Below, in pieces: positions 33,276 through 60,400 of a stretch of DNA of 64,000 nt. The translations under genes were made by a program, and so were the position numbers. Position 1 is the first letter of the stretch. Every line of letters begins with the position of its first letter. A model generated the notes under the pieces. The model ran no database searches. It saw only the letters and a list, made by a program, of their open reading frames with translations, and was not told the origin of the DNA. This DNA is from Owenia fusiformis (lineage: Eukaryota; Annelida; Polychaeta; Sabellida; Oweniidae): the NCBI GenBank assembly GCA_903813345.2, contig CAIIXF020000007.1, positions 10,421,730 through 10,485,729 on the forward strand. Reading direction: 5' to 3'.

Positions 33276-33400
33276 TTAGTCTTCATTCTTCACAGACCCC
33301 TTATCATCATCATCGCCATTCTTCACAGACCTCCTATCATCATCACTTTTCACTGACTTTCTGTCATTGTCATCATTATCTTTGATCGACTTGTCATCAT
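33276..33400 (-). CDS. ODAD4 alternative terminal exon 2
   Basis: Acceptor CATTTCCAG before 33400; phase 1. It encodes DDDKSIKDNDDNDRKSVKSD and a further acidic/basic stretch ending KGSVKNED, TAA at 33278-33276. The K/R-S-V-K triplets echo the DRSDKSD and NSVKSD motifs of exon 59660-59415, supporting membership in the same gene. Confidence 0.6.
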
Positions 33401-36400
33401 CTGGAAATGGAACAATTAAGAAGAATTAAATTTAATTCATGTTACTAATTCCACAATCATAAGAAGAAGTATCTAAATGATTAACAAATTCTTCCAAAAT
33501 TAGAAATGGAACTTTGAGGATATTTCAGAAAGAACATTTTCACATTGATTCACATTTTTTATATGTGATCTAATTGAGAAGTGCAGTAATCCCTCTTTAA
33601 AATTCACATTTTTGTTAGGAAATGCTAACGGATCAAAAAAAAAAAAAAAACGTTGCAAAAAGAGAACATAGTTTGCAGCTACATGTACCTATGCGTTTGG
33701 GGAACCCTTATTGTTGAACAATCAGTTAATTTGAAACACTTGAGTCGTCTTTGTTCTTCTGGATGTTATCAGCTTTATAAAGAAATGAAGAAAAATTAAA
33801 ACAAGATTTGCAAAGAAAAGAAAGTGGAACTAAACAATATATGCTCTATAAACTAAATGTACATCTAAGTCTAAAACAGAAAATTCGAAGGTGCAGGAAT
33901 ACACTCAGACAGTTAACTATAGTGCAAGTTTTGCGAAATAACAAATTCAATTTAACACTATAACTTTCAAAGCTATCTAAGTAAACAAATGGACTAAAGC
34001 AACATTATTAACATTTGTTGGACTTAAGCTACAAAAACCCACTTTTCCTTTAAGCATTTTACTAATTCTCTTGCATGAAATTTCATTTCTTCCGTGTTAC
34101 TACCTTTTCCCGAGTCAGCAGTTGTCACTGTATCATCTGGATTAGTCACACCATCTGTGGGTAAACTATGCCTTGGCTGATTTTTCTCAACACTTGCTGC
34201 TTTTACAGCAATATTATCTGCAGAGGAATCTTTTTCTCCATCTGTTTTAGACACACTGGATTCCTTATTTTCAGGACGTTCTTCATTACTTGTAATGTTT
34301 CTTGAAGTTTCTTCTATACTTGCGCCTCTAGGACTTTCTTCATTAGTAGTCTTGTCTCTTGGGCTTTCATCTTTACTAGCATTGTCTCTTGGACTTTCTT
34401 CTTTACTAGCCTTGTCTCTTGGGCTTTCATCTTTACTAGCATTGTCTCTTGGGCTTTCATCTTTACTAGCATTGTCTCTTTGACTTTCTTCTTTACTAGC
34501 CTTGTCTCTCGGGCTTTCTTCTTTACTAGTGTTGTCTCCTGGGCTTTCCTCTTTACTAGCCTCATCTCCTGGGCTTCCATCTTTAATAGTCTTGTCTCTT
34601 GGACTTTCTTCTTTACTAGCCTTGTCTCTTGGGCTTTCATCTTTACTAGCATTGTCTCTTGGGCTTTCATCTTTACTAGCATTGTCTCTTTGACTTTCTT
34701 CTTTACTAGCATTGTCTCTTGGACTTTCTTCTTTACTAGTGTTGTCTCCTGGGCTTCCATCTTTAATAGTCTTATCTCTTGGGCTTACATCTTTACTAGC
34801 CTCATCTCTTAGGCTTTCTCCTTTAACAGCCTTTTCTCCTGGGCTTTCTTCTTTAATAGCCTCATCTCTTGGACTTTCATCTTTACTAGCCTTGTCTCCT
34901 GGGATTTCATCTTTACTAGCCTTGTCTCTTGGGCTTTCATCTTTACTAGCATTGTCTCTTTGACTTTCTTCTTTACTAGCCTTGTCTCTCGGGCTTTCTT
35001 CTTTACTAGTGTTGTCTCCTGGGCTTCCATCTTTAATAGTCTTATCTCTTGGGCTTACATCTTTACTAGCCTCATCTCTTGGGCTTTCTCCTTTAACAGC
35101 CTTTTCTCCTGGGCTTTCTTCTTTAATAGCCAGATCTCCTGGTCTTTTGTCTTTAATAACCATATCTCCTGGGCTTCCATCTTTAATAGCCATATCTCTT
35201 GGGCTTTGACCTTTACTAGCCTTATCTTTTGGGCTTTTTTCCTTACTAGCCGTGTCTCTTGGACTTTCATCTTTACTTGCCTCATCTCTTGGACTTCCAT
35301 CTTTATTAGTCTTGTCTCTTGGGCTTTCATCCCCACTAGCCTCATCTCTTGGTCTTTCTTTTTTAAGAGCCTTGTCTCTTGAATTCCCTTCTTTACTAGC
35401 CTCTTCTCTTTGACTTTCATCTTCAGTAGTCTCATCTTTTTGAATATCTCCTTTGCTAGCTTTGTCCATAGGACTTTCATTTTTGCTAGCCTCATCTCTT
35501 GGACTTGTCTTTTTACTAGCTTCATCTCTTGGGTTTTCATCTTTAGTAGCATCATCTCTTGGGCTCTCATCTTTGGTAGTCCCATCTCTTGGGGTTTCTC
35601 CTTTACTATCTTTGTCTCTTGGGCTTTCATCTTTGCTAATCTCATCTCTTTGACTTTCCTTTTTACTAACCTCATCTCTTGGACTTTCATCTTTAGTAGG
35701 ATCATCTCTTAGGCTTTCTCCATTACTAGCTTTGTCTCTTGGGCTTTCATCTTTTCTAGCCTCTTCTCTTGGGCTCTCTTCTTTAGTAGTCCCATCTCTT
35801 GGGGTTTCTCCTTTACTATCTTTGTCTCTTGGGATTTCATCTTTGCTAGCCTCATCTCTTGAGCTTTCCTGTTTACTAGTTTCATCTCTACGGCTTTCAT
35901 CTTTAGTCGCATCATCTCTTGGGCTATCCTTTTTACTAGTATCATTTCTTGGGGTTTCATGTTTAGTAGCATCATCATCTCTTGGACTTTCACTTTTAAT
36001 AATCTCATAGCTTGGGCTTTCCTTTTTATCAGCCTCATCTCCCAGGGTTTCTGCTTTTCTAGCCTCATCTTTTGGGCTTTCATCTTTAGTAGCCTTGTCT
36101 CTTGGAATTGGATTTTCTTTTTTACTTGCCTCATCTCTGAAACTTTCTTTTCTTGTTTTTTGTCTTGAACTATCTGTCAATGTTGAACTACTCTCATTGC
36201 TCCCTGAACTGTTCACAGGACTCTCTCCTTGTCCTTGTGAATCTCCAACTGAGGTAACTGAATTTCTTTGATTTCTAGAGGCTGCTTTCTTATATCGTGG
36301 TGGTACTGGCCTTTTATTAGACTTCCCCTTTGGGGTGTTGTTAATAGAGCTATAACTTCCATCAGATTTGTCTCTTCCACTTGATTTAAGAGTAGAATTA

Positions 36401-39400
36401 CTATCTGAGCTTCTTGTGCTACTTAAAGGACTGTCATCTGCATTAATGTTGGTTTCATTATTAGATTCAATTTTATTCTTAGGGCTATCAGGTTCATCCA
36501 AACTTAACCTAATGTTTCTATGACTACCAGATGCTATAGAGCCTAATGCTGAAGAACACACAAAAAGAGAAAAATTAGAAATAGCATAAATAAAAAGCAA
36601 ACACAAATATCCAAGTGTTAAAAGCACACACAAACAAACAGTGAGACTAAAATGTGATGTAACAAGTGCGTTACAAGGCATAAAAAATAATATGTGGTTA
36701 GATAGGCATTTCCCAAGTTCTAAGCTACAAAGTTGTAAAGACAAGACAAGAACAGTCAGACAAGTAGAACAGTGTATGAAGCCTGAATTCTCCACAAGGG
36801 ATAACTATGGGGCTATACAGGGTTACCTTTAGCTTCCTCTGCTTGTTGAGTATCTTCTTTACTAGGGTCATCATCTTTAGACTCTGATTCTGAAGGTTGA
36901 TATAGGTTATATACAAAGGAGTTATGTTACATTTACAAATCAAATGAAATAAATGTTATTTGGCAAGCCACAATAATGAAGCAAGTGTAATAAAGATGAG
37001 CAATCGTATATGACATTTCTACTTCTGCCTTGTTAAAAGAAGTGCAAAACTTCTTACTATGAACCCAAAGCAAAATAAGATAGTCAGAGAATCGTGAAAC
37101 TAGTTAGTAGGATGTTTTGTTAGAGAAAACACACTGAATGTTCGGCAGCCGAAAATGCCACCTCAATATTCAACTTCAAAGCTCAACCCCCTGTATATAA
37201 TTATTGAACGTACCTTTATATCTTGAGTTTCCACTGTCGCTAGCATTGCTGTTCCTCCTACTGCTGGATTTATCTAAAATACAAGGTGGAGATGATTAAT
37301 AGAAATCAATTAGATCCTGTAATAGAGGAGAAATACATCAAGGCATAATCAAACAAAATGAGCAAAGAGGGAAACCAATTAATAGAAAAATATTGAAGAG
37401 CTTGTTTTGCAAAGGAAGTTTTCATCCTCCAAATAAAGTGCTCTAAGATCACTAAATTCCTGAGTATTTTTTAACGTGAAGTAAATATGGATTTTTTTGG
37501 TGGATCTTGAATGCATCTCATTTGGAAAATGGAATATTGTCGAAAAATCAGATTCTGGTGATTTAGCGTACACTGTATTATACTTAGTCAAATTGAAGAT
37601 AGTGAATCGTAATTATATTAGATACCATGATTGACTTTGACATGCTACTGTTACTTCCTACAGCTTCTCAAATGGAATAATACAATTATCAGATTAAGCC
37701 TGTTGAAGGAATTCAATAATTATCCAGAAACTGAACAAACCTGTCATTCTTTGAGATACTGAAATATAGCACTGAATATGACAATGGTACATATTCAAAG
37801 CCCAAAATAGGCCATTTATAGCACCGCAGCGACTTTTAATTTTTGTATTTCAAAGAGGAAAAATAATCGCATTACATATTTTGCTCTTTGATGTTTCTTT
37901 AGAGATATTAATAGATAAGATAAGCGCATAGAGGAACTTATTGAGAAGCTTGTTATTAGCACATTTATCAAAGTACGGCTTGATGCTCATGACAGTATTG
38001 ATTATTATACAAGATATATTCGAGTAGAGGATATTTCAAGGTTGCTAATTGTAGCGGATAACATAAGAGGCTGAGGCAAACGTAATCATAATTGCTTTTG
38101 AAAGAGTCATGCAAAATCACCTTCTTCAAATAGATCAGGTTTTCAAAGGCCCACTTGGAAACTCACATTGTGATTGTTGTCTATGAGCAGTTTATTATTT
38201 TACCGAAGTGCTACACAATCTGTATTCAATAAACTATAAATTATTTACCAGAAATTTTATCAGCCAGCAATGTTTTCTTCCGACAATAACAAATGTTTTA
38301 TAATAATTATTTTTATGATTAAAATCTCGAGGATAGCTTTAATTTAAGGTAGATCCACATGTTGAGTATTTTCATGTAATTTTTATGATTTCAATTACCA
38401 AGAAAAAATAATACATTTTTCAAAATTTAATGTTGATATTTATACAATACAGCAATACAGAATACATAGTTCAAAACCAAATATTTTGCCAAATTTGTGT
38501 TGAAATGACATATCACTGAATTATTTTTCAATTTGTTCTGAAAGTGCAGAACTACCTTAACAGCAGAGTACAGTACAATGTAAGTCTGCATACTCTGATT
38601 TGATGTACACAGAATCAAAGAATTATCTTAATTTAAGTGAAGTAGATCCTTTGCAAAGGGAATGCATTATTGTTTGGCTCAACCTCTTATCAAATATATC
38701 ATGCAAACCGTTTTGTATTTCATGCAATATATTTTCTATATTCTCGTAAACTACGATGCAATAATTCAATGTGATAAAAGAATTAAATCATGACAAAAAT
38801 CTTTTCATGTTCATCAATGTCTATTGTCTTGCTGCAATAAACGATTTGAACTTATCATTTTATCCTTAAAACATGTAAACTCCAACCTTACCTTTATATA
38901 TACAAGGGCCGATCAAAAAGTTTCTTACCATTGGCTCTCAATTTGTATTCTTTTATTAACTCTTACCTGTACCTTCCAATATATATGAGGCTAACCAAAA
39001 GGCATTTGGAAGGGATCACATGAAATATTTTATTTATCATATCACTGAATTTTAATATGCCTTTCCTTCAATTCAATGCATTTTGGTATAATGTATGAAT
39101 CCATTTAAGGGTAATACAACATGTTTTGACTTTCATAACACACAGTGCACATACACACATACATGCCCACTGAAACCCCATAACATCAAAGTTCACTTTT
39201 CATTTCATGTGATACATCATGTCGAATGTTTTGATATCCTTCAATGGATATACTTTGATATATTGCCTTTTGGAACAATGCATGGACACCAACATCATGT
39301 GAAACGACATCTCTGGACATTCATACATGCACTACATGTATATATACAGACGTTGCATACATCAAAATAATAAACCTAATATTCTACACTCGCATAAATG

Positions 39401-42400: not shown

Positions 42401-45400
42401 ATCATGTTGTTTTATCAACATAACTGATTTGTATGTTTAATTATGACATCAGGCATTTACTATTATATCAGAGTACATCATGTTATATCAGTATACATTG
42501 CAGGCCTGTCAACTGTCCCGCAATTTGCGTATTTGTCACGCATTTGCTGAAGAATTTGAAGTCACGCCAGTTATTTTTGTGTGACAGAAAATGTCACGCA
42601 AATACGCATTTTACCTGGTAATTGTCAAGCAAAAATATTTCTGTAGAAAAATTTCTAAAAAAGATCGTCTACACAGCAAAAATACGAACGCCGGAAAAAA
42701 ATGTACGCATTTTGTTCGGACTTTTCACGCGAATTACGTATATGTCACGCATTTCGTTTGAAATCTTTTGTACCTACTCCCCCCCCCCCCTGATGGATGT
42801 TTGAAACGCGAGCGTAGCGAGCGCGAAAAATTTGAGGTGTTCAAAATTTGGCAAGATGTAATAAAATTTAAACCAAGGTGTTCAAAATTTGGATCAAGGT
42901 GTTCAGATTTGGACCAGGGTGTCCACATTTTGAGGGGAGGTGTTCAACATTTCCAAGTCACTCATGTTAGGTGTTAGGTGTTCCCAAGTTGACAGGCCTG
43001 ACATTGTTTCTTGAAGCAGTGGATCTGGAAATTGTTGTTGTATCAGTGTACATAGTATTATTGTTGTATCAGTGTACATAGTATTGTTGTTGTATCAGTG
43101 TACATAGTATTGTTGTTGTATCAGTGTACATAGTATTGTTGTTGTATCAGTGTACATAGTATTGTTGTTGTATCAGTGTACATAGTATTGTTGTTGTATC
43201 AGTGTACATAGTATTGTTGTTGTATCAGTGTACATAGTATTGTTGTTGTATCAGTGTACATAGTATTGTTGTTGTATCAGTGTACATAGTATTGTTGTTG
43301 TATCAGTGTACATAGTATTATTGTTGTATCAGTGTACATAGTATTATTGTTGTATCAGTGTACATAGTATTGTTGTTGTATCAGTGTACATATTATTGTT
43401 GTTGTATCAGTGTACATAGTATTGTTGTTGTATCAGTGTACATAGTATTATTGTTGTATCAGTGTACATAGTATTGTTGTTGTATCAGTGTACATAGTAT
43501 TGTTGTATCAGTGTATCAGGAAATACCAGTGTACATCATTTTGTTGTTGTTCATTGTTGTTCCTCTAGCAGTATCACATGTTCCAATTGTCGAGAAAGAG
43601 TATTACATATCTTGCCAGTATATCCGATGTATTTCAATCGTATCAGTGTAACTTTTGCTGAATAAGTGTAAGTAACTTATCCTCCGATGAACATTTAGAC
43701 GATTCCATTGGTCTAAGAATATTCTTATTTGAGATGAATTGAAATGTATTTCCTCAATTACAAGTGTTTAATCCACTCAAGGGGTCTTTAATTAAACCAT
43801 GATTACAGGAATACTGTTAGTTTTCACTGTAATGGCACATTATGACCCGTGAGGTGACAATTAATAACTCTCTGTAGATATTTCACCGCCAACAAGGCTA
43901 ATGATTACTTCTCCACATGTCAGTGTCTTGAATCTTCATCCATTTTTACGAGCTGTAAAGATGCTTCCTCTGTGTAGAATAATACCTCCTCTCACTGTAG
44001 GTTGTTTATGTTTCAAATAATTCAGAATACCGTACAGGAAATATCCAAGTACAAAAGAGAAAAGAAATGACTGAGTTAAAGTCCAGATCATCGTAGCTAT
44101 TACGGATGCCATGTTATTTGGACTTTCCACTTAATCTGTTTTATCGCATTTGTATTTTCACTACATTCAATAATCTCTGCGGAGCAGTTAAGCTATTGAC
44201 TATCTATATTTAAAGCTTGTTGAACGCTTGTTTATATGTATATATTGAATATTTCAAACACTCTTGTATCGTCATTGATTTTCCCGCTATATGCTGCTGA
44301 TAACCTCTGGCAAACCTAGTGTTGCTGGGAACGATACATCGTATAAATAGCAATTATCTTTGCTACTTCTAACAGGTTGATGGCATTTCTTACTTTAATA
44401 TTACACTGGAGTTTGACATTAAACCCAAGTGGTAGTCATTGACAAAAGTCAACTTTACTCAAATAAATCTTGATTTAAGCGTTTCGGATCAATGTATTTA
44501 TTTTCCGAATTATATTTGCATTATAAGATAGTTAAAATAAGGCACATTATAAAATCATCTCTTGGAAGTTATTGTTAATGTTTCAGATATAATGCAACTA
44601 CTCCAAAAGCTCTACAGATTATTTCCTCATATTAAATCTGCTAAGTTCAAAAATGTGATGCAGTTACAACTGAGCCCAGTTTCTCTATTGGTAAATGTTG
44701 ATATACTCAAGTCCATTCAATACAACATAAGAATACTGTTACATTCTATCCTTTCATTACATTAGAATAATTATGTTACACTCTGCACCGAGTCTTAGTT
44801 GTTTAATTATTTATAGAGAAATGACTACTGTTTACAGATACTACAAATTCAATAATAAAAGCAGCAAAAGAAACATTTACTTACTTACTTCTTACCATGT
44901 ATAATGTAATATTGTATCTCAGGTGATTTCAATTGTTTTCATTTTGACTAATTAATGTTCATAGATCTTTATATGGAAGCAAACATACAAATACAATTAC
45001 AATAACATATAACATACGAGTATTTACAATTAAATGAAGCCAAGAAAATAAAATATGAAACATTCTTCAGCAAATATACGATGGGGACTTCAATTAAATT
45101 TTGCAATAACGCAATGTGCATGTAACATGAGTCCCAAAATGCTATTACTTTCCTACAATATGAATCAGAGAAGTTTTACATAGGATATACTACATATATA
45201 GTGTGATCTAATCAAATATAATTCTATTCAATATATTATTTTTTTAAAAACAGATATCAATAACCATGCATAAAAAATAAAAAATTAAAAGTTAATGCAA
45301 TGATGCACGTAATATTTCTAAAAATTCATAGATAGAAGAAACACATATAATTAAAAAATCTTGATATCTCTGCAAAGGAGTGGCATTCATGTAAGTTTAA

Positions 45401-48400
45401 TTATCAACTTGCTTTGTCAAAACTCTCCACTTGCATTGTCAACACTATCAGGTCTAGTTGCTTTGTCAACACTATCAGGTCTACTTGCTTTGTCAACACT
45501 ACCAGGTCTACTTGCTTTGTCAACACTATCAGGTCTACTTGCTTTGTCAACACTATCAGGTCTACTTGCAATATAAGCACTACCAGGTCTACTTGCTTTG
45601 TCAACACTATCAGGTCTACTTGCTTTGTCAACACTATCAGGTCTATTTGCTTTGTCAACACTATCAGGTCTACTTGCAATATCAGCACTACCAGGTCTAC
45701 TTGCTTTGTCAACAGTATCAGGTCTACTTGCTTTGTCAACACTATCAGGTCTACTTGCTTTGTCAACACTACCTGGTCTACTCTTTACGTCAATACTGCA
45801 AGATCTACTTGTTATGTCAACACTCATAGGTCTACTTGTTTTGTCAACACTACCAATACTTCTTGCTGTTTCAACACTACAAGGTCTACTTGCTTTGTCA
45901 ACACTATCAGGTCTACTTGCTATATCAACACTACCAGGTCTACTTGCTTTGTCAACACTATCGGGTCTATTTGCTTGGTCAACACTACCAGGTCTACTTG
46001 CTTTGTCAACACTATCAGGTCTACTTGATTTGTCAACACTACCAGGTCTATTTGCTTTGTCAACACTATCAGGTCTACTTGCTATATCAACACTACCAGG
46101 TCTACTTGCTTTGTCAACACTATCAGGTCTACTTGCTTTGTCAACACTATCAGGTCTACTTGCTTTGTCAACACTACCAGGTCTACTTGTTTTGTCAACA
46201 CTATCAGGTCTACTTGCTATATCAACACTACCAGGTCTACTTGCTTTGTCAACACTATCAGGTCTACTTGCGTTGTTAACACTATCAGGTCTACTTTCTT
46301 TGTCAACACTACCAGGTCTACTTGCTTTATCAACACTATCAGATCTACTTGCAATATCAGCACTACCAGGTCTACTTGCTTTGTCAAAACTATCAGGTCT
46401 ACTTGCTTTGTCAACACTATCAGGTCTACTTGCATTGACAACAGTATCAGGTCTACTTGCTTTGTCAACACTATCAGGTCTACTTGCTTTGTCAACACTA
46501 CCTGGTCTACTTGTTACGTAAATACTGCAAGGTCTACTTGTTATGTCAACACTCATAGGTCTACTTGTTTTGTCAACACTACCAATACTTCTTGCTGTTT
46601 CAACACTACAAGGTCTACTTGCTTTGTCAACACTACCAGGTCTACTTGCTTTGTCAACACTACCAGGTCTACTTGTTATGTCAAGGCTGCCAGGTCTACT
46701 TTCTTTGTCAACGCTATCGGGTCTATTTGCTTTGTCAACACTACCAGGTCTACTTGCTTTGTCAACACTATCAGGTCTGCTTGCTCTATCAACACTACCA
46801 GGTCTACTTGCTTTGTCAACACCATCAGGTCTGCTTGCTCTATCAACACTACCAGGTCTACTTGCATCGTCAACACTATCAGGTCTACTTGCTTTGTCAA
46901 CACTACCAGGTCTACTTGCTTTGTCAACACTATCAGGTCTGCTTGCTCTATCAACACTACCAGGTCTACTTGCATCGTCAACACTATCAGGTCTACTTGC
47001 TTTGTCAACACTACCAGGTCTACTTGCTTTGTCAACACTATCAGATCTACTTGCTTTGTCAACACTATTGGGTCTACTTGCTTTGTCAACACTACCAGGA
47101 CTACTTTCTTTGTCAACACTAATGGGTCTACTTGCTTTGTCAACACTACCAGGTCTTCTTTCTTTGTCAACACTGTCGGGTCTACTTGCTTTGTCAACAC
47201 TACCAGGTCTACTTGCTTTGTCAACACTATCAGGTCTACTTGCTATATCAACACTACCAGGTCTACTTGCTTTGTCAACACTATGAGATATACTTGCTTT
47301 GTCAAAACTATGATGTCTACTTGCTTGGTCAATACTATGAGGTCTACTCGCTTTGTTAACACTACCAGGTCTACTTGCTTTGTCAAAACTATCAGGTCCA
47401 CTTCCTTTGTAAACTCTATCAGGTCTACTTGTTATGTCAACACTGCAGGGTCTACTTGTTATGTCAACACTCATAGGTCTACTTGTTTTGTCAACACTAC
47501 CAAGACTTCTTGCTGTTTCAATACTACAAGGTCTACTTGCTTTGTCAACACTAGCATGTCTGCTTGCTTTGTCAACACTACCAGGTCTACTTGTTATGTC
47601 AAGGCTGCCGGGTCTTCTTTCTTTGTCAACACTATCGGGTCTATTTGCTTTGTCAACACTACCAGAACTACTTGCTTTGTCAACACTACCAGGTCTACTT
47701 GCTTTGTCAACACTACCAGGTCTCCTTGCTTTCTCAACAGTATCAGGTCTACCTGCTATGTCAAGGCTGCCGGGTCTACTTTCTTCGTCAACACTATCAT
47801 GTCTATTTGCTTTGTCAACACTACCAGGTCTACTTGTTATGTCAACAGTACCAAATCTCCTTACTTTGTCAACACTTCCAGGTCTACTTGCTTTGTCAAC
47901 ACTACCAGGTCTACAAACTTTGTCAACACTTCCAGTTCTACTTGCTTTGTCAACACTAGCAAGTCTACTTGCTGTGTCAATACTACCAGGTCTACTTGCT
48001 TTGTCGACACTACCAAGTCTACTTGCTGTGTCAATACTACCAGGTCTACTTGCTTTGTCAACACTACCAGGTCTACTTTCTTTGTCAACACTATCGGGTC
48101 TACTTGCTTTGTCAACACTACCAAGTCTAATTACTTTGTCAACACTACCAGGTCTACTTGCTTTGTCAACACTACCAGGTCTACTTGCTTTGTCAACACT
48201 ACCAGTTTTACTTACTTTGCCAACACTACCAGGTCTACTTGCTTTGTCAACACTACCAGACCTACTTCCTTTGTCAACACTACCAGATCTACTTGCTTTG
48301 TCAACACTATCAGGTCTACTTGCTTTGTCAACACTACCAGGTCTACTTGCTTTGTTAACACTACCATTTCTACTTGCTATGTCAACACTTCTGGGTTTAC

Positions 48401-51400
48401 TTGATTTGTCAACACTACCAGGTCTACTTGCTTTGTCAACACTACCAGTTCTACTTGCTATGTCAACACTGATATCTCTACTTGCTTTGTCAACACTACC
48501 AGATCTACTTGCTTTTTCAACACTACCAGTTCTACTTGTTATGTCGACACTACTGGGTCTACTTGCTCTGTCAACACTACCAAGACTACTTGCTGTTTCA
48601 ACACTATCCGGTCTACTTGCTTTGACAACACTACCGGGTCTACTTGCTTTGTCAACACTATCAGGTCTATTTGCTTCGTCGACACTACTGGGTCTACTTG
48701 CTTTGTCAACACTATCAGGTCTATTTGCTTCGTCGACACTACTGGGTCTACTTGCTATGTCAACACTACAAGGGCTACTTGTTATGTCAGCACTACCAGG
48801 TCTTAAATTGTCAACACTTCCAGGTCTACTTGCTTTGTTAAGACTACAAGGCCTACTTACAATGTCAACAGTATCGGGTCTACTTGCTTTGTCAACACTA
48901 CCAGGTCTACTTGCTATGTCAACACTACCGGGTCTACTTGCTTTGTCAACACTACCAGGTCTACTTACTTTGTCAACACTACTGGGTCTACTTGCTTTGT
49001 CAACACTACCAGGTCTACTTTCTTTGTTAACACTACCAGGTCTATTTGCTTTATCAACACTACCAGGTCTACTTGCTTTGTCAACACTACCAGTTCTACT
49101 TGCTTTGTCAACACTACCAGTTCTACTTGCTATGTCAACACTACCAGGTCTAATTACTTTGTCAACACTACCAGGTCTACTTTCTTTGTTAACACTACCA
49201 GGTCTATTTGCTTTATCAACACTACCAGGTCTACTTGCTTTGTCAACACTACCAGTTCTACTTGCTATGTCAACACTACAAGGTCTACTTGCTTTCTCAA
49301 CACTACTAGGTCTTCTTGCATTGTCAACATTACAAGGTCTACTTGCTTTATCAACACTACCGGGTCTTCTTGAATTGTCAAAATTGCCAGGTCTACTTCC
49401 TGTATCAACACTACCAGATCTACTTGCTATGTCAATACCCCCATTTTCACTTGTTTCGTCAACACTGTTAGGTTTACCTACTTTATCAACACTACCAAGT
49501 CTACTTGCTTTGTCAAAACTTCTTCCAAGCTTGCTTGCTTTGTCAACACTACCAGCAACACTAACAGAAGCAGGTGTTAGCAATTCATCAACAGACAGTG
49601 ATTTAAGAGCATTATTTGAACTTCTCAATTCATTTACACTATTAGCTTCACTCTCATTTGTACAACATTTTTGAAGTTTTCCAAACATTTCTGGCAAACT
49701 TTTCCTGCTTCTGAACCATGGTCTTTTACTTGTAAACAGATCCGCAATTATAGAGGTAACTGCATCTTCACTTGAACAGTCATCATCAACTTTGTTTTTG
49801 TTCACCTTTTCAACTTCAATTTCAATATCTTGAATCTCATTCCTATCTGTACTTATACATTTATCATTATGATCAGCTTTGTCAATATGTGTGGACATAC
49901 TTTTTGTGCATACAATGCCATCAAAATTGTTTATTGGAACCTTCTCACTGCTACTTGATTGAAGTGGCATCATAGATTCTTCCAATTCATTTGAATCAAG
50001 GAAGGTAAATCTGGACTTATTAGAATCAACATTAGATAAAGGGCTAAGAAGCTGTTCATTTGGATCACCACATTGTTTTTCAGTTTGAGCAATGAATAGT
50101 TCACTATTATGAACAATTTTAACAATAACAGGGCTACTTTGCTCCACTGATTTTTTATTTTCCCTCACAGCTGAATTCTCACAGGGATCATTGTGTTCTA
50201 TATCATCACTTAAAACATCCTTTGTTGATGATTCATCTTTACAGGGTCTTGTTTGATCATCTGAACTGTATACATCCTTGCATTGGGCTTCATCTATTGA
50301 TGCCATTGTTTCATCATTCGCACTACTTACATCTTCACTCTGAGCTGCATTCTGTGTTTGATCATCCTGGCTGTTTATCTTTTTAAACTTTGGTTCATCT
50401 TCAGATATCATATTTTGCGATGTAACTTCAGACGACATTTTACGCTCACTTTTAATGCCATCACATTTAGCTTGTGATTTTTCAGCAGAGCATTCTGCTG
50501 CATCCTTTTCAATATCTGCTTGACTGATTTGTTCTGAAGGGCCTGTCGTATGTCTTGGAGACTGAGAAGGTGTTGAGCTTGCGCTTGAATCATCCTCAAC
50601 CCAACCAAGTTTACTCAAACTTCCCCTGCCTAATACTGCAACACTTTCCCGGTGTCTTAGCTTTGGAGATCCTTCAATCATAACAATAAAATAAAATAAC
50701 AAAATGAAACATCTACATAAAGATCCATCTAAAAAGGAATATACATACACACGGGTCATTCCAAATTTTGAACATAAATATCCTGAATTCTCAAAGCTGA
50801 ATTATTCAAGGATACTTGAACAAAGAAAACTTTTTCACAAAATGCTTCCATCATACAGATGAAACATAAAAATGATTAAAAACAATTCTAATGATATTAG
50901 AAGCCAAATATAGTAGTACTATAGTATACATACTTGGTGTTTCCTTTTCCATTATTTCATTAATTTCATCATTATCAGCATTATCTACATTTTCACATTC
51001 CTCTTTCGGACTGCATTTCCTAATTAGTATACCATCTTGATTCAAAGCATTTGAGCCATTTGGGCTATTTGGCCTGCACACTTGGTCTATTGTGCAAGCT
51101 TGGTTCCCCGTATTATCTTTTTGATCTTCTGGACTTGATACTTTCAGTGTCACATTATCTTTTATTGCACCACTTGAACAATCAGCATCCTGAGAGTCTT
51201 CTGATATGTTTGAGCTCTTCGTCTGGACCAAATCGTCACTCTTACTCTGAGAAACCATTTCACTGCTCTTTTCTTTAACTGCTGTTCTATCATGATCTTT
51301 AATTTCCTCATTGAAATCATCATCACCACTGGAATCTTCTTCTACCCATCCCATTCTACTCTCAACCCCACAACTGGCCCTTTCATCATATGCACCTATA

Positions 51401-54400
51401 ATTTATAAAAATAATCATGTTTTGATTTATAATATAGTACATAAGTTCTTTCTTGAGTAAATTTATTATTAACACAGTACATGCTTACAAAATTACTGTA
51501 TTGATTCATATCTTACACACCTTGATTATTTGTTCCAGTATCTTCAAGAAAGGCACAATCATCTTGATCCCCTATGACTCCCTCACTATCGTCAACAGTT
51601 TGGTCATCATGAACATCCTCTTTGATTTTGGTCCCATCATACTGGTTTATGTTTTCTGTAGATCCAACCAGCGCATCTTTTTGTTCCATTTCATCCTCTT
51701 GTTCATCCTCTACTATGCTATCCAGAGTAACTGTGTTTATTTCATCATCTTTCATATGTTCTAAATTTTCATCTAAATCAATTTCCCCATACCCTTTTGA
51801 ACTTACAGATGATCTTGGATTGTCAAAGTAAACTTTGTCCTTGCTTTTCTGAATTTCAGCTTCAGCTAAATCATCTGAGGTGTCAACTTTAACATTGACT
51901 GCAGAAGCCATGTTTGAGGTACTAGAATCTGTTGAGGAAAGTGGACTATTAAAACCCAATGCAGTATGTTCACGAGATGCTTCATTGCTTGGAGGTTTTG
52001 AGTTTGTTCTGCTGGATATATCAAACAGAGTTTGTTCATCATCTCCACTCAGTTCTGTCAAAGTAGGCTCCTCACATGATGGTTTATTTTCAGAGCTAGC
52101 CTCATTACCATCTTCAGCTTCTCCCAAAAGTTGTTCCCTTGAATGTGTTCCCAACAGGGAACATCTTTCATCTCTTTCCTCATCATCACTTAATCCATCA
52201 CTGGAGTCCTCAATATTTCCATCCATTGATTTTGCAAGATTATCATCACTTGTATCAGCTGCTGAATCATTGTCATCCACTTTCGTCATTTTCTCTTGCT
52301 GTTGATCTTTAAGTGAAGTACTTGCTCTGCTCGACTTTCTGGAGATGTTACTTGATGTTGCAGTAGAGACTCTACTTGATACAAGACTTCCACCCTCAAA
52401 TATGACCTGATTATCTTCAAACTTTACATCATCAACCTCAGTAGGTGTTTTCTCAGCTACTCTGCTCATAGTCATATCAATGTGACTTTCTGCATGACTT
52501 TCTGATTGGGCTGATTCTGTTGTAGAAGGTCTACTCTCGAACTGTATGTTATTTTCCTGCCTTTCAATATCATGTTGCTCAGTGTTATCATCATCTGCTT
52601 CATAACCCTCTTCCAACTGTTTCTCTATCTGTTCCTGTTGCTCACAACTCAATTTCCCATGTGAACTATTTGTTTCAGATTTTCCATCCATTTCCAAGTC
52701 ACTTTCAAAATCTAATTCATAATCTGGTGTGGTGCTAATACAAGTTGATGTCCTACTGTGTACTTGTGCAACAGAGAAATGGCTATTAGAACTTGAGCTA
52801 CTACCTAGGACTTCTCGTTGCTCACTTATTTCTTCAAAAGCGTTGCTTGGTACAGGAGAAATTTTTTCATATTGGATTTCATCATCAGCTTTTGTAGTTG
52901 AAGAGGTAACTGGTCTACTCTCTAATGATTCTGCCTGAGATGCAGGCCTTGACTTTGTAGATTCTGCCTGTGAATCAGATCTTGACTTTGTAGATTTTGC
53001 CTGTGAAGTAGGTCCTGACTTTGTAGATTCTGCCTGAGAAGCAGATTTTGACTTTGTCGATTCTGCCTGTGAAATAGGTCTTGACTTTGTAGATTCTGCC
53101 TGTGAAACAGGTCTTGAATTTGTAGATTTTACCGGAGAAGCAGATCTTGATTTTAAAGATTCTGCATAAGAAGTAGATTTTGATTTTAAAGATTCTGCCT
53201 GTGAAACAGGTCTTGACTTTGTAGATTCTGCCCGAGAAGCAGATCTTGACTTTGTAGATTCTGCCTGTGATGTAGGTCTTGACTTTGTAGATTCTGCTTG
53301 TGAAACAGGTCTTGAATTTGTAAATTCTCCCTGTGGAGCAGATCTTGATTTTACAGATTCTGCCTGTGAATCAGATCTGGACTTTGTAGATTCTGCGTGT
53401 GAAGTAGGTCCTGACTTTGTAGATTCTGCCCGAGAAGCAGATTTTGACTTTGTCGATTCTGCCTGTGAAATAGGTCTTGACTTTGAAGATTCTGCCTGTG
53501 AAGCAGGTCTTGAATTTGTAGATTTTACCGGAGAAGCAGATCTTGATTTTAAAGATTCTGCATAAGAAGTAGATTTTGATTTTAAAGATTCTGCCTGTGA
53601 AACAGGTCTTGACTTTGTAGATTCTGCCCGAGAAGCAGATCTTGACTTTGTAGATTCTGCCTGTGATGTAGGTCTTGACTTTGTAGATTCTCCTTGTGAA
53701 ACAGGTCTTGAATTTGTAAATTCTCCCTGTGGGGCAGATCTTGATTTTACAGATTCTGCCTGTGAATCAGATCTGGACTTTGTAGATTCTGCGTGTGAGG
53801 CAGGTGTTGACTTTGTAGATTCTGCGTGTGAGGCAGGTGTTGACTTTATAGATTCTGCCTGTGAAGTAGGTCTTGAATTTGTAGATTCTGCCTTGGAAGC
53901 AGGTCTTGACTTAGTGAACTCCTCTGCCTGTGAAGCAGGTCTTGAGTTTAAAGATTCCGCCTGTGAAACGGATTTGGACTTTATAGAATCTACTTTTGAA
54001 GCAGGTCTTGACTTTGTTGATTCTGCCTTGGAAGGAGGTCTTGACTTTATAGATTCGTCAAGTGAAGCAGATCTGGACTCTGTAGATTCTACTTGTGAAG
54101 CAGGTCTTGACTTTGTAGATTCTGCCTTCGAATGAGTTCTTGACTTTACAGATTCATCATGTGAAACAGATCTCGACTTTGTAGATTCTACTTGTGATGT
54201 AGATCTTGACTTTGTAGATTCTACCTCTGATGCAGGTCTCGACTTTGCAGATTCTACTTGTGATGCAGGTCTCGACTTTGTAGATTCTGCCTGTGATGCA
54301 GGTCTTGACTTTGTAGATTCTGCCTGTGATGCAGGTCTTGACTTTGTAGATTCTGCCTGTGATGCAGGTCTTGAATTCACAGATTCTGCCTGTGATGCAG

Positions 54401-57400
54401 GTCTTGAATTTACAAATTCTGCCTTTGGAGATTCTGCCTGTGATGCAGGTCTTGAATTTGTAGATTCTGCCTGTGATGCAGGTCTTGAATTTACAGATTC
54501 TGCCTGTGATGCAGGTCTTGAATTTACAAATTCTGCCTTTGGAGATTCTACCTGTGATGCAGGTCTTGAATTTACAGATTCTGCCTGTGATGCAGGTCTT
54601 GAATTAACAGATTCTGCCTGTGATGCAGGTCTTGAATTTACAGATTCTGCCTGTGATGCAGGTCTTGAATTTACAGATTCTGCCTGTGATGCAGGTCTTG
54701 GATTTACAAATTCTGCCTTTGGAGATTCTGCCTGTGATGCAGGTCTTGAATTTACAGATTCTGCCTGTGATGCAGGTCTTGAATTAACAGATTCTGACTT
54801 TTGAGATTCTGCCTGTGATGCAGGTCTTGAATTTACAGATTCTGCCTTTGGAGATTCTGCCTGTGATGCAGGTCTTGAATTTACAGATTCTGCCTGTGAT
54901 GCAGGTCTTGAATTAACAGATTCTGCCTTTGGAGGTTCTGCCTGTAATGCAGGTCTTGAATTTACAGATTCTGTCTTTGAAGCAGGTCTTAACTTTACAG
55001 ATTCTGTCTTTGAAGCAGGTCTTAACTTTATAGATTCTGTTTGTGATGTAGGGCTTTTCTTCTCAGATTCTACATGTGGAGATGTTTTGGATGATTTGAT
55101 AGGATTTTGCTCTGAAGATGTTAATTTTTCGGATTCTTGCTTTGAGAAGCTTTCATACTTCGAAGTTTTCTTCTTTCGTTTCGATGCAGATGATTTGTTT
55201 GACTTATAACTTGTCCCACTGCTTTGCTTTTCTTCTATAACCTTAGATATCATCTTTCTTCTATCATGACGTTTTTCTAAAATTCAAAAAGAAAAAGTTT
55301 GAACATATCATTTACTTTTTAACAAAAGTGCAATTTACAAATCTAGCCAAATATCAAAAATGTTTAATTTCTATCTTTAAAATACTCACAATAAGATCAG
55401 TTTAATCACTTACCTCAAAACTATGTTTTAAAATACAGAAAACAAAACATGCTTCAATGTTTGCACCAGACAGACACTCCATAAAACGTGGGAAAGAAGA
55501 TATGGAATACAGTATATGCTGACATGCTGTTTGGAAACACTGAAGGTGACAACTCTAGTCACGATATAAAGATGTCACTCTTATTCAAAATTCATAACAT
55601 GGCATTAACATGACAAAATGTCACCACCTAGTTGCTCACAATATTATTAGTTCAAACTTAAGTCAGATTTGAATTTCTGAGAACTCTGTAGATGATTTTG
55701 AAAAATGGTCAATTTGAAACAAGTTCTTTTACTCTTCACATTGAAGGTGAAATCCCAAATCAGGTTTGAACTTCTGAGAACTTTAAGATGATTTTGAAAA
55801 AGAAAATTGGTCAATTTGAAGCAAGTTGAAAAAAGACCTTTTTAACCTTTTTTGACCTTGAAAAGGTCATTGAAGGACAAATCTTAATTCTAGAGTCAGA
55901 TTTGAGCTTCTGAAAACTTGTAGATGATTTTGAAAAAAAATTGCTCAATTTGAAGTACATGTAAGTTGAAAAAAGACCTTTTTGAACCTTTTATTGACCT
56001 TGAAAGGTCATCGAAGGTCAAATCTTAATTCTAGTCATATGAACTTCTGAAAACTTGTAGATGATTTTGAAAAAAGTCACTCTAAACAGTATTTGTCAAG
56101 TTACTGGAAGTTGTGTAAGAAATTGTGACAGACGCCAATCGCTGTCACAAAAAATGGTGACAATAACAATATGTCACCACTTTCTGGTGGTGACATAATA
56201 AAATTAGAAATTTCAAAATAACATGCATCTGGAATTGAGATAATAAGTGATAGATTTAGTTGCTGTTCTTCTACAATCATGCATTCAAAACAATTTTTAA
56301 AATATCATAAACAAGTACATGTTTAAATCAAAGATCTGTCTTCGGACTGAATAGCTGCATGTAATCTAGGTACACTGCAGTCTTTTCAGAGAAAATGGAC
56401 ATTCTAAAATGGGACAATATTCAAGGAAACATTACATGGCAAGTGTTTCAAGGATAGGATAGGTCAGTGCTTCAAAAATTTACATTGTTGCTTAACTCTT
56501 ACACTTTACATGTGTGATATACTAACTATGGGTAACATGAAAGTGTATGCAAACATCACATTTTCCCTTATCATTTACAGATTTCACATGAATTATCCAT
56601 TACATATCATGATGAGAGAATAATGAACTTTAAGACATATAGATGTCATGGTGGTCAAACTTATTTTGTTAAAAAATATCATGAACATAAATGTATCTTA
56701 TTTCATTCAAATAAAGAGGTTATTACAATGGTAATTTGTGTCAATGAAATAAGGATTTGAGATCAACTCAGCCAAAAATACAAAAATATTATGAACCAAA
56801 AAGAATTTCTCTAACATCAACAAAATATAGGGTACTGCTAAAAAAATTAAAGCTATACATATTCCGTTGACAATTTTTACAGAACTATGAAATAGAGTAA
56901 ATTCTAGTGTACTCTTTCAGCTTCATTTAAGGTGATGTTTATGCAAAATCTTGAAAATAAAAAAGTCCTTAGTGACCACCGTGACATATGTTGAAATGGG
57001 CATTACAAAGACTGTCAATGTTAAACACACCTCCGTAATAAAGCTCAAAGAAATCTGTATCAGGCTTAGGATTCTGGGTATTTTCCTCTTGTTTCTTGCC
57101 TATAAAATATGCATTAAGTTAGTGAAAAATATAGAGATTCACGTTTACAAATAATTGTGATGGGTTATTTAAATTGAAATGTAATATTATAAAAATCAAA
57201 CAATAAATAAACTCAGTTTCAACAATAGAATAACCAGAATGAGAAATTCCCATTAAGAGGAGGACAATGATAATTTATATTGGGGTTCCGATATCAAACT
57301 TTATGTTCAAGTACTTCCAAATTTTAGTATTATAATTAACTTAACAATACAGTATGTGGGAATAAACTCCATTTGTATGGTGTGTCATGCTTCAAATATA

Positions 57401-60400
57401 TATATGTATATGTTCACATATGTAGGACAGGGTTATGTGAGGGGCACACTTTTACCTTTATGTAGTATATACTCCATGTCATAGACAAACTCATGATCTG
57501 GTTCATGCTTTACTAAAATAGAATTTAAAAATCTAAATATCAAAATAAAAGTTTGCAAATATGCTCAGAGGTCATACTTTGCTTATACACCAAATGATAA
57601 TATCTACTAAGTTGATAATATAAATCACATCAATCATGACTTCAAGAGTTGAAGATTTAAATTAAGAATGCATGAAATGCAAATATTTTGCTCAGTTCAC
57701 CTACCAAGAAAGGAAAATTATGTGCTTATGTATAAAAGTGCAAACTCTGTTAAGTGTTGCATATTCCGTGTCATGCCTTTCATAAAAATCAAATATCACA
57801 CATCAAGTATCACAATTTCTATCAAATCATTCATCACACATTCTAACAATTCATACCACACAAATTCTATCAATTTTAATTTGACCAGTCATGCCATCAA
57901 GTCAAGTATAAATTATTTCTAGACCTACCTTAACCCATATATTCCATGGGCTATTCCCAATATTATATGATATATATAGGTTATTTACTGGGAGGGATTG
58001 GATATGGGTTTTATTCCGAGGGACAATATAATATTGACCGAAGGGTAATATGATATTGACCGAGGGAGCGCAGCGACCGAGTGTCAATATCATATAACCC
58101 AAGGTCAATATCATATTTTCCAAGGAATAAAACCCATATTCAATCCCGACCAGAAATAACCTATTTATTCCATAATACACCCACCCCTCTAAACTGCTAC
58201 ATTTGGATAATGCAAAAAACGGGAAAAAATAACCCGGAAACCGAAAATAGGTTAATATGCTCCAATACGATTTTTCTCGGGGACAATACGATTTTTTCAT
58301 GTAATACGCTCTAATACGATTTTTTCCTGGGGACAATACGATTTTTTCATGTAATATGATTCAATACGATTTTTATTCCTTCTTATAACATACCTATGAT
58401 GATGTATAGTGCAAAGTGTACACAAGACAGCGGGCCAATATAAGTTTTGAAAAGCCCGCGCCCGCTAACTTTCTGATTGGTCAAGGCGCTGACGTCATAA
58501 CCAATCAATCGAAGATAAAACTGCACGAGCAATTTTTCTAAACTCATTTCAACCATTTGTTCGTCAATTCTATAAGAAAACGGTACTCTCTGACCAGTCT
58601 ACATCATCATAGGTATGTTATAAATCGTTTATGTCACTATCGTGGCACATATGCCCTCGGTTCTCAGAGATCAATGTCCCTCCCAAGGTCGGGCCATATA
58701 TCACTGAGTCCTCGGGCATATATGCCACGATAGTGACATAACCTCTAAATATTTCCCTGGGAAAACAGTAGTATTATGGAATAAATGATTTTATTAGGCA
58801 TCCACTCTGTAATACTGTGAATTGCTGGTCCCATTTACTGCTCAGAGACAATGTACTTTAATACAACATAATAGCTCCTAGTCAACTCAACCCCAAGTCA
58901 TCTCAACCCTTGGTCATCTCAACCCCAAGTCAACTCAACCACAAATCATCTCAACCCTTAGTCAGCTCAAATGATCAACCCTTGGTCATATCAGAATCGA
59001 GGTTGACCAAAGCTTCAGTTGACTGTGGGTGGGTTGAAATTACTTGAGTTGAGTTGACTTAGGGCTGTGATTACTTGGGATTTATCTACCCAATTATCTG
59101 AACACACAATATAAGTGAACAAGAGGCATGACAGATACAAGACAGGTGCAAACTTACCTTTATCGTCCTCAAAGTCATCATCTTCATATTTGTCTGCACC
59201 TACAAGCCAAGCACAGTAACATGTGAGACAAAGCAGTGCAATATATACATAGTGCAATATGAGTACATTGTGCAATAAACACATAGCAATGCACACATAT
59301 TGTGTACATATATATGTTATGTCTTTACAATATATGTTAGTAGGTATTGTATATGGCCTGTCATGCATGTAAAACATTTGAACTTTGTTTTATAAATTGA
59401 ATGTTTATTCTTACCTTTGTCTGACTTCTTGGATCTTCTTGATCCATCAGATTTATCAGATCTGTCTGATTTCACTGAATTTGACCTTGATCTTGACCTT
59501 TGACTTTCATCGTCATCCTTAACTCCTCGCACAATTCTATCGTTTGCATCTTGGAGAGCCTTTTTAATGGCTGATTCTGCCGCAGAATCACCTTGTACCT
59601 TTGCCATGTCCAGTGCCGTCTCAAATGAATCTACAGCATTTTGCAAATCTCCAAGTTTCACTGTAAAATCAAATCGAAAACATAAACTCATGCAAGTGAA
59701 ACATTTTTTTGTTTTATAAATGGATTAAATTACATTTTTTCTTAACAAATGGTGGCAATGCCAATAACTGATCTTAAAGCAACTCAATATCAGGACTTCA
59801 TATTAAAGTTGAAAATGACAACATTGAGACAATAAATAAACAGTTTATTTCATCAAATACCAAACTAATGACTGTTAGTTATATGGTGTTTATCTTGAGT
59901 TAAGCTGCCAATATTTTCAATAAACAATGCTAAGATATAGAGCGGAATGCAATTATTGTATATTATAACAGGCAAAGCTCATCTCTAGGACTCTAGGAGA
60001 GTTGTCTCTGTTTATGAGATATATACACACCCATACAAGTGAGATAAACAAATATAAGAGCCAGAATTAATAAACAGACTACTAGGAAATTGTCTGCATT
60101 TTGCAGATTTACTATGCTATAGAGGTGCCAGGAATCATGTAGCTCTAATTACCCTTTGTAAATAAGAATTCACTCTCTGTATTCTGATTAGAGGAGTTAC
60201 TCGCGAGAAAAATCCAACTCGAGTTCAACTTGCCAAATATTTCCAAAACTCGAGTAAAACTCGAGTTCATTCATTTCGTCCAGTACATGTTGTAAACCCG
60301 GTTATACAAAATTACTATAGCTTCTTGCGGCAAGTTTCTCTGGTTTAGTCACATCTAAAAGCTGTTTAACACGTTGGGGACATATGAAAGTGTGGTATTC

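Follow-up and report, generated by a model that had tools for sequence, protein, structure and literature searches.

The question raised by this locus is whether the ODAD4 (TTC25) gene of the annelid Owenia fusiformis encodes, behind its TPR core, a tail of several thousand residues built from three kinds of tandem repeat, and whether such a tail is a fixed or an optional part of the protein. Vertebrate ODAD4 is described, in passages of one paper (PMC8595878), as belonging to the outer-arm docking complex with its 24-nm spacing. The window, by which we mean the whole stretch of DNA analysed, comprises 64,000 nt of assembly GCA_903813345.2 (contig CAIIXF020000007.1, 10,421,730-10,485,729), and the gene lies on its minus strand throughout.

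The homology to ODAD4 proposed in the initial annotation is borne out. The TPR core in the window matches human ODAD4 with E=3e-68, the top three matches all being ODAD4/TTC25 chains, and seven joined window exons are identical at 328 of 328 residues to a public Owenia protein of 606 aa (P0001), which carries the name ODAD4 in one source. The 278 N-terminal residues of P0001 are encoded upstream of the window and its precomputed Pfam list includes TPR families. On this sequence identity we firmly assign the gene as Owenia fusiformis ODAD4 (TTC25). The TPR core stands ahead of the repeat exons in the same gene, as had been claimed, but is located (59415-63974 and beyond the window) outside the interval originally flagged, 33276-57512. 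The exons, and one further feature, are as follows.

63767..63974, minus strand: T1, TPR exon of ODAD4, with further exons upstream, beyond the window (identity to P0001; match to human ODAD4)
63281..63367, minus strand: T2, TPR exon (identity to P0001)
62874..63070, minus strand: T3, TPR exon (identity to P0001)
59415..59660, minus strand: T4, end of the TPR core and start of the tail; phase 1 donor, score 6.59 (identity to P0001)
57456..57512, minus strand: e5, putative short exon of the tail encoding 19 aa, phase 1-1, absent from P0001 (open frame, splice sites)
51521..55276, minus strand: e6, 3756 nt, phase 1-1, acceptor 1.10, donor 5.24; about 60 copies of the 11-aa unit TKSRPASQAES, followed by a non-repetitive stretch of 462 residues that contains a Y..DFE sequence (open frame, codon signature, units)
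50934..51395, minus strand: e7, non-repetitive, 462 nt, phase 1-1; its head, GVESRMGWVEEDSS, is similar to that of e8 (codon signature, splice sites, head comparison)
45431..50671, minus strand: e8, 5241 nt, weak acceptor and donor; a non-repetitive stretch of 372 residues leads into 151 copies of the 9-aa unit VDKASRPGS (open frame, codon signature, units)
45396..45401, minus strand: ATTAAA hexamer whose first base lies 16 nt beyond the final base of the stop that follows the e8 array; candidate poly(A) signal should e8 be terminal
37214..37273, minus strand: e9, annotated small tail exon, phase 1-1 (in P0001)
36827..36889, minus strand: e9b, annotated small tail exon, 63 nt, 21 aa, phase 1-1 (in P0001)
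34104..36548, minus strand: e10, 2445 nt, phase 1-1, acceptor 1.10, donor 0.31; a 133-residue non-repetitive stretch, then 59 copies of the 10-aa unit RDKASKDESP (open frame, codon signature, units)
33276..33400, minus strand: e11, annotated last coding exon including the stop codon (in P0001)

P0001 is spliced T4-e9-e9b-e11, with its small tail exons within 33276-37273, and the giant exons e6, e8 and e10 sit on the same strand inside introns of its gene structure. Because P0001 uses exons that flank the giant ones on both sides, one gene covers the flagged interval; the proposal that the repeat exons belong to a single gene is upheld to that extent. P0001, the sole public Owenia protein found for this gene, omits e5, e6, e7, e8 and e10, so that the giant tail is not constitutive.

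The three giant repeat exons are confirmed as real by the analysis of their sequence, with the lengths (3756, about 5240 and 2445 nt) and units (11, 9 and 10 residues) originally described. When TPR, small and giant exons are joined, a single reading frame stays open for 4,315 aa in the window, or 4,593 aa with the outside N-terminus, and the giant exons contribute approximately 3,800 codons without a stop. Among 60 simulated sequences of 64 kb the longest stop-free run was 181 aa; outside their repeats, e6 and e8 stay open for 462 and 372 aa respectively, which is above chance. The non-repetitive sequence of e6, e7, e8 and e10 was compared with the codon-position signature that annotated exons show: all 4 carry it in the model frame only, at +0.11 to +0.40 per codon, with negative values in the 20 other frames and in eight intron controls, each read in three frames; e5 is too small for this test. 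Repeat units were sought at any offset, making frame shifts detectable, and all 271 clear units (61 + 151 + 59 in e6, e8 and e10) share one frame, in agreement with the codon coherence first reported for these arrays. A laxer cut-off added a single out-of-frame, degenerate unit, which is located beyond the point where e8 presumably ends and overlaps the e8 stop. No stop codon occurs in 267 repeat units, and stop-making changes from consensus number 2 across the three arrays against 34.3 expected; for the sense frame of the e8 array the figures are 0 and 10.2. Two antisense frames of the e10 array are also stop-depleted (5 against 13.5 and 2 against 8.7 expected), so depletion there is not peculiar to the model frame, and an excess of synonymous changes was seen in one of the three arrays. 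The e8 array is open on the antisense strand too, for as many as 791 aa, which was set aside as a by-product of a period divisible by 3; one antisense frame shows 3 stop-making changes where 3.6 are expected, the other 3 where 10.6 are. A Pfam scan of the three giant open frames gave no match besides one to apolipoprotein in e6, which scored 31.1 bits where the cut-off is 90 and was judged compositional.

Other tandem arrays, with periods of 26 and 50, occur in presumably non-coding parts of the window. Were the giant exons likewise expanded minisatellites, formerly coding for tail and now silent or decaying and permanently skipped, their omission from the public isoform and the poor splice sites of e8 would follow, and array growth outside coding sequence would have a precedent in the same window; part of the e6 array, moreover, is 93-96 percent alike and may be young. 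We nevertheless consider this unlikely, given some 3,800 stop-free codons in arrays whose main rows are just 77, 80 and 83 percent alike, the single frame shared by every clear unit, and the retention in e6, e7 and e10 of acceptors comparable to those of annotated exons.

The best reading of the exon sequences is that the giants are alternative cassettes. All seven internal tail exons (e5, e6, e7, e8, e9, e9b and e10) are multiples of 3 with phase 1-1, and each is therefore includable or skippable in frame. The exon structure in the initial annotation missed the 63-nt annotated exon at 36889-36827 and relied on weak sites at e8, where the acceptor scores 0.30 against 0.90-1.17 elsewhere and the donor -1.27 against 0.31-6.61. 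An alternative e8 acceptor exists at 50728, and the frame of e8 meets a stop at 45417-45419, 11 nt into the presumed intron, such that e8 may be a terminal exon. The ATTAAA that follows is weak evidence, since the 64 kb contain 153 instances of AATAAA or ATTAAA on this strand, about one per 420 nt. With poor splice sites and a possible terminal exon, the three arrays need not share one protein. A constitutive ODAD4 of 4,593 aa, in which all tail exons and the three arrays are always joined, is consistent with the phase compatibility and single stop-free frame of the model exons, yet is quite improbable in view of the five exons omitted from the 606-aa isoform and of the weak sites and early stop of e8; equally, the tail of about 4,000 residues first proposed stands as a phase-compatible single open frame but not as a constitutive one. 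A scan of the gene strand for further hidden phase-1 exons gave 43 candidates, the best 14 of which are parts or variants of e6, e8 and e10; the best plus-strand control reached 20.5 bits against 504, and e5 is outside these 14.

A different possibility is that one or more same-strand genes are nested in the ODAD4 introns, with e6-e7-e8 forming a repeat-protein gene of its own. There is a methionine at residue nine of e6 (EKRHDRRKM), e8 has its own stop with ATTAAA shortly after, and no database protein links the TPR core to the giant exons; e6, however, begins with a good phase-1 acceptor, the 3 codons ahead of which contain no start, and includes an ODAD4-like Y..DFE sequence. In e10 no methionine precedes the array, so that a start is most simply provided by a phase-1 exon upstream, of which the P0001 exons e9 and e9b are nearest. 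One in-frame ATG does occur in the 86 codons preceding the e10 acceptor, making an unspliced start conceivable, but the stretch that bears it is hydrophobic and pyrimidine-rich, as expected ahead of an acceptor. We regard nested genes as improbable.

Comparison with other animals bears on how singular the Owenia tail would be. Residues 286-509 of human ODAD4 (PDB 8j07, 7rro) match the Owenia TPR core, and a charged, serine-rich tail follows likewise; what sets Owenia apart in this comparison is its three families of repeats, carried by giant exons of symmetric phase. The statement that the vertebrate tail is merely short and degenerate was overstated, as five models of elephant shark (Callorhinchus milii) ODAD4 (P0104, P0106, P0108-P0110) have a tail of tandem units varying in number from 2 to 21, albeit with a different unit from those of Owenia and a longest tail of 911 aa. 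In scallops, Ylistrum (P0103) has and Argopecten (P0113) lacks a 582-residue block directly behind a YEDDFEE motif, which, being a comparison across two species, is no proof of alternative splicing within one; scallop ODAD4, with a tail of 796 aa, is much shorter than the giant Owenia forms. A bdelloid rotifer protein (P0121, 1,725 aa) and two from echinoderms (P0008, P0016) resemble Owenia in joining the TPR core to an enlarged C-terminal part, although their additions, unlike those of Owenia, include PLAT domains (PF01477, precomputed Pfam lists). Judged by these protein models, long and model-variable ODAD4 tails recur in other animals. Among the matches listed no ODAD4 approaches 4,000 aa; a protein search for ODAD4 of 1,650-5,250 aa found none besides one rotifer protein, and the unique tail parts, those of e6, e7 and e8, had no match among proteins of about 1,240-3,940 aa.

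Published Owenia data cover embryos, larvae, juvenile and nine adult samples including testes, according to parts of PMC9977687. That the sole Owenia isoform found skips the giants despite such broad sampling counts against the cassette reading, though the annotation described in the same parts of that paper discarded 5,779 repeat-overlapping models. We judge it probable, all elements taken together, that ODAD4 has a tail of skippable phase-1 cassettes, that the giants are spliced in by some cell types and that the tail acts like a bristle. Symmetric exons would leave the frame unshifted whether skipped or included; an isoform with e10 is predicted at roughly 1,420 aa, one with e6-e7-e8 terminating at the stop behind the e8 array at about 3,700 aa, and one with all exons at 4,593 aa at most. 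Like its vertebrate counterpart, the TPR core would bind the outer-dynein-arm docking complex with its 24-nm repeat; the long, presumably disordered tail would extend off the doublet surface as a bristle, its length set by splicing and its charge by phosphorylation, and would tune how outer arms are spaced or loaded in a certain type of cilium or flagellum. The long tether or phase-separating scaffold first suggested is likewise conjectural. The tail is nearly net-neutral and serine-rich, with disorder assumed from composition. Candidate phosphorylation sites are R-x-x-S in e6 and e8 and S/T-x-x-D/E in e6 and e10. In the two R-x-x-S arrays R is kept in 84 and 91 percent of units and S in 96 and 93 percent, the intervening residues being less kept (68 and 61 percent; 79 and 53 percent); as only two arrays share the motif, it counts as two founding events rather than as hundreds of sites that arose independently. 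It is doubtful that the giant-tail isoforms go as far as forming a kinase-switchable polymer brush at 24-nm intervals on the outer doublet face of one cilium type or of sperm, with splicing controlling length and phosphorylation charge; a scaling law gives the full tail an Rg of about 28 nm, exceeding the docking repeat. Our literature search on ODAD4/TTC25 tails showed, in titles and abstract openings of the papers listed, nothing on repeat expansion or tail splicing, and passages of two docking-complex papers do not discuss the role of the tail.

Should the giant exons be in use, docking subunits of 606 to several thousand residues would come from one gene, and the Owenia tail, at up to 4,106 residues past the TPR core, would be more than three times the longest (1,222 aa) among 118 listed relatives, whose median is 105; the role of the ODAD4 tail could then be tested directly through the isoforms of different cilium types. 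There may also be a blind spot, to go by the parts of PMC9977687 cited above, in that coding exons built of repeats are lost where annotations drop repeat-overlapping models.

Smaller resemblances run through the tail, two of which, the e6 motif and the heads of e7 and e8, count in favour of the preferred reading. Exon e6 contains PDYELDFESD, which differs at one residue from the motif Y-x-[DEN]-[DE]-F-[ED] present in 23 of 123 listed proteins; the looser Y..DF[ED] is expected 0.0034 times in the tail, in a comparison made post hoc, after both sequences had been seen. A common origin of the three units is not claimed: the first two share ACAAAG and AGACCTG, equalled by 2.7-7.2 percent of shuffles, and the pairs 2-3 and 1-3 are similar at the level of chance. 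The heads of e7 and e8 align with a similarity score of 51, against a maximum of 37 in 1000 shuffles.

On sequence similarity, we take the gene in the window to be the Owenia fusiformis homologue of ODAD4 (TTC25), read from the minus strand. The four exons at 59415-63974 (T1-T4) encode the C-terminal half of the TPR core, and a phmmer search against solved structures matched human ODAD4 over its residues 286-509 (E=3e-68). Seven joined exons in the window (T1-T4 and the small annotated tail exons e9, e9b and e11) supply 328 residues identical to the public 606-aa Owenia protein P0001, the remaining 278 N-terminal residues of which are encoded outside the window. Judged by P0001, annotated transcripts extend from the TPR exons to 33276, and the giant exons therefore sit within the transcription unit; P0001 skips e6, e7, e8 and e10, as well as the candidate small exon e5. 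The three long repeat exons reported in the initial annotation were recovered at the lengths it gave and are listed here together with e7, which has no repeats (unit counts are for one-codon steps, then for any offset):

51521-55276, minus: e6, 3756 nt; 57 units of 11 aa, 61 at any offset; non-repetitive part 462 aa
50934-51395, minus: e7; non-repetitive part 154 aa
45431-50671, minus: e8, 5241 nt; 151 units of 9 aa, 151 at any offset; non-repetitive part 372 aa
34104-36548, minus: e10, 2445 nt; 59 units of 10 aa, 59 at any offset; non-repetitive part 133 aa

Giant and small exons join into a single frame of 4,315 aa inside the window and 4,593 aa in total. In a tandem array with a period that is a multiple of three, openness of the frame is weak evidence of coding, and antisense frames are also open, up to 791 aa. 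Three tests carry more weight. In the non-repetitive parts of e6, e7, e8 and e10, the codon-position signature learned from the annotated exons (a training set of seven exons of similar composition) shows in the model frame only, being negative in 20 other frames and in eight intron controls read in three frames each. Within the arrays, departures from the unit consensus that create a stop are rarer than expected, with 2 against 17.8 expected in e6, 0 against 10.2 in e8 and 0 against 6.3 in e10, with hypergeometric values of 0.021, 0.053 and 0.011 respectively when counted as distinct kinds; two antisense frames of the e10 array are likewise depleted (5 of 13.5 and 2 of 8.7 expected), so the test discriminates frames poorly there. 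All 271 clear units, sought at any offset, share one frame, and a laxer cut-off, which admits 278 units, leaves a single one out of frame, located at 45395-45421 beyond the presumed end of e8. The giant exons form a real coding set that is missing from P0001, the sole public protein retrieved for the gene.

All internal tail exons in the model are in phase 1 at both ends, so that each could be added or omitted in frame, and the set fits alternative cassettes. The heads of e7 (GVESRMGWVEEDSS) and e8 (GSLSKLGWVEDDSS) are related, scoring 51 against 37 for the best of 1000 shuffles, and because their starts are related the two exons probably belong together. No methionine lies ahead of the array in e10; an in-frame, unspliced ATG precedes its acceptor, within a hydrophobic, pyrimidine-rich stretch. 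By our own simple scoring, e8 has both the poorest acceptor (0.30 vs 0.90-1.17 in the others) and the poorest donor (-1.27 vs 0.31-6.61) of the model. A stronger acceptor lies 57 nt upstream at 50728, and its use would add a hydrophobic stretch. The e8 frame runs 11 nt into the presumed intron to a TGA (45419-45417), and an ATTAAA begins 16 nt beyond this stop. Exon e8 may be a terminal exon, in which case the e6 and e8 arrays would fall in one isoform (~3,700 aa) and the e10 array in another (~1,420 aa), both sizes being summed exon lengths.

Relatives comprised the best 120 of 390 matches, the other 270 being at most 1,750 aa by the length limit of the search, with three more from a search for long relatives. 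Tail statistics leave out P0001, P0002 and P0053 (fused- or duplicated-looking models) and P0122 and P0123 (bacterial-type TPR proteins). Among the 118 proteins kept, isoforms counted apart, the median tail is 105 aa; 13 exceed 300 aa and four exceed 800 aa. The longest, 1,222 aa, belongs to a rotifer protein with PLAT domains, and the longest repeat tail among the listed relatives, 911 aa, to elephant shark, whereas the Owenia tail could reach a maximum of 4,106 aa. No ODAD4 besides the rotifer protein was found in the range 1,650-5,250 aa, and the unique tail parts matched none of the proteins of ~1,240-3,940 aa (scored: the 7,997 candidates with the most words in common). The published Owenia annotation drew on RNA-seq of embryos, larvae, one juvenile and nine adult samples, testes among them, and discarded 5,779 repeat-overlapping models (PMC9977687), which may in part account for the lack of a database match. 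Tail length also varies between models of other animals, elephant shark having 2 to 21 units across five models and scallop a 582-aa block present in one model and missing from another, and Owenia is an extreme case. The novelty lies in the degree, and perhaps the regulation, and does not amount to a new type of gene. Precomputed Pfam lists the PLAT family (PF01477) for P0008, P0010, P0016, P0024 and P0121, ODAD4 proteins of echinoderms and bdelloid rotifers; these would represent a second way of lengthening ODAD4, by folded domains.

A short Y-x-D-D-F-E motif recurs in molluscs, an annelid (Ridgeia) and amphioxus, within ODAD4 tails that are otherwise unlike. Of the 123 listed proteins, 23 have the form Y-x-[DEN]-[DE]-F-[ED] (same-species isoforms counted apart), and e6 contains PDYELDFESD, one residue off; the number of Y..DF[ED] expected by composition is 0.0034, in a post hoc comparison, both having already been seen.

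With an NCPR of -0.015 the tail is close to neutral, and it has 35 percent charged, 24.5 percent S+T and 1.4 percent aromatic residues, a composition that suggests an expanded disordered chain, and the paucity of aromatics would argue mildly against strong self-association. For the full-length tail, literature scaling laws put the Rg at ~28 nm and the contour at 1.5 um. The e6 and e8 exons contain 60 and 137 instances of R-x-x-S/T, against 21.9 and 39.3 in shuffles; this motif is at chance in e10 (14 vs 13.7) and slightly more frequent than chance in the unique parts (13 vs 9.7). S/T-x-x-D/E occurs 83 times in e6 and 115 in e10 (shuffles 58.5 and 44.3) and is at chance in e8 (61 vs 62.5). In two arrays, the R and S of R-x-x-S are better conserved within units than the residues between them. 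We presume the corresponding kinase classes to be PKA-like and CK2-like, and the Owenia tail could act as a phosphorylatable bristle, its length set by splicing.

Other features of the window are as follows:

9547-9806: 50-nt unit, five copies, 99 percent alike
10459-10815, plus: fragment that may resemble a DnaJ-B6-type protein; no Pfam match
17457-18200, plus: stop-free stretch of 247 aa (maximum of 60 simulated windows, 181 aa), perhaps a candidate coding exon; no Pfam match
25357-27774, minus: open frames in which RS/RD/KE dipeptides abound, with a CxxC..H..C stretch, which we take to be CIR1-like; no Pfam match for two single frames
43031-43506: 26-nt unit in 18 tandem copies, 98 percent alike, within the e8-e9 intron; this array is young and adjoins the older coding arrays
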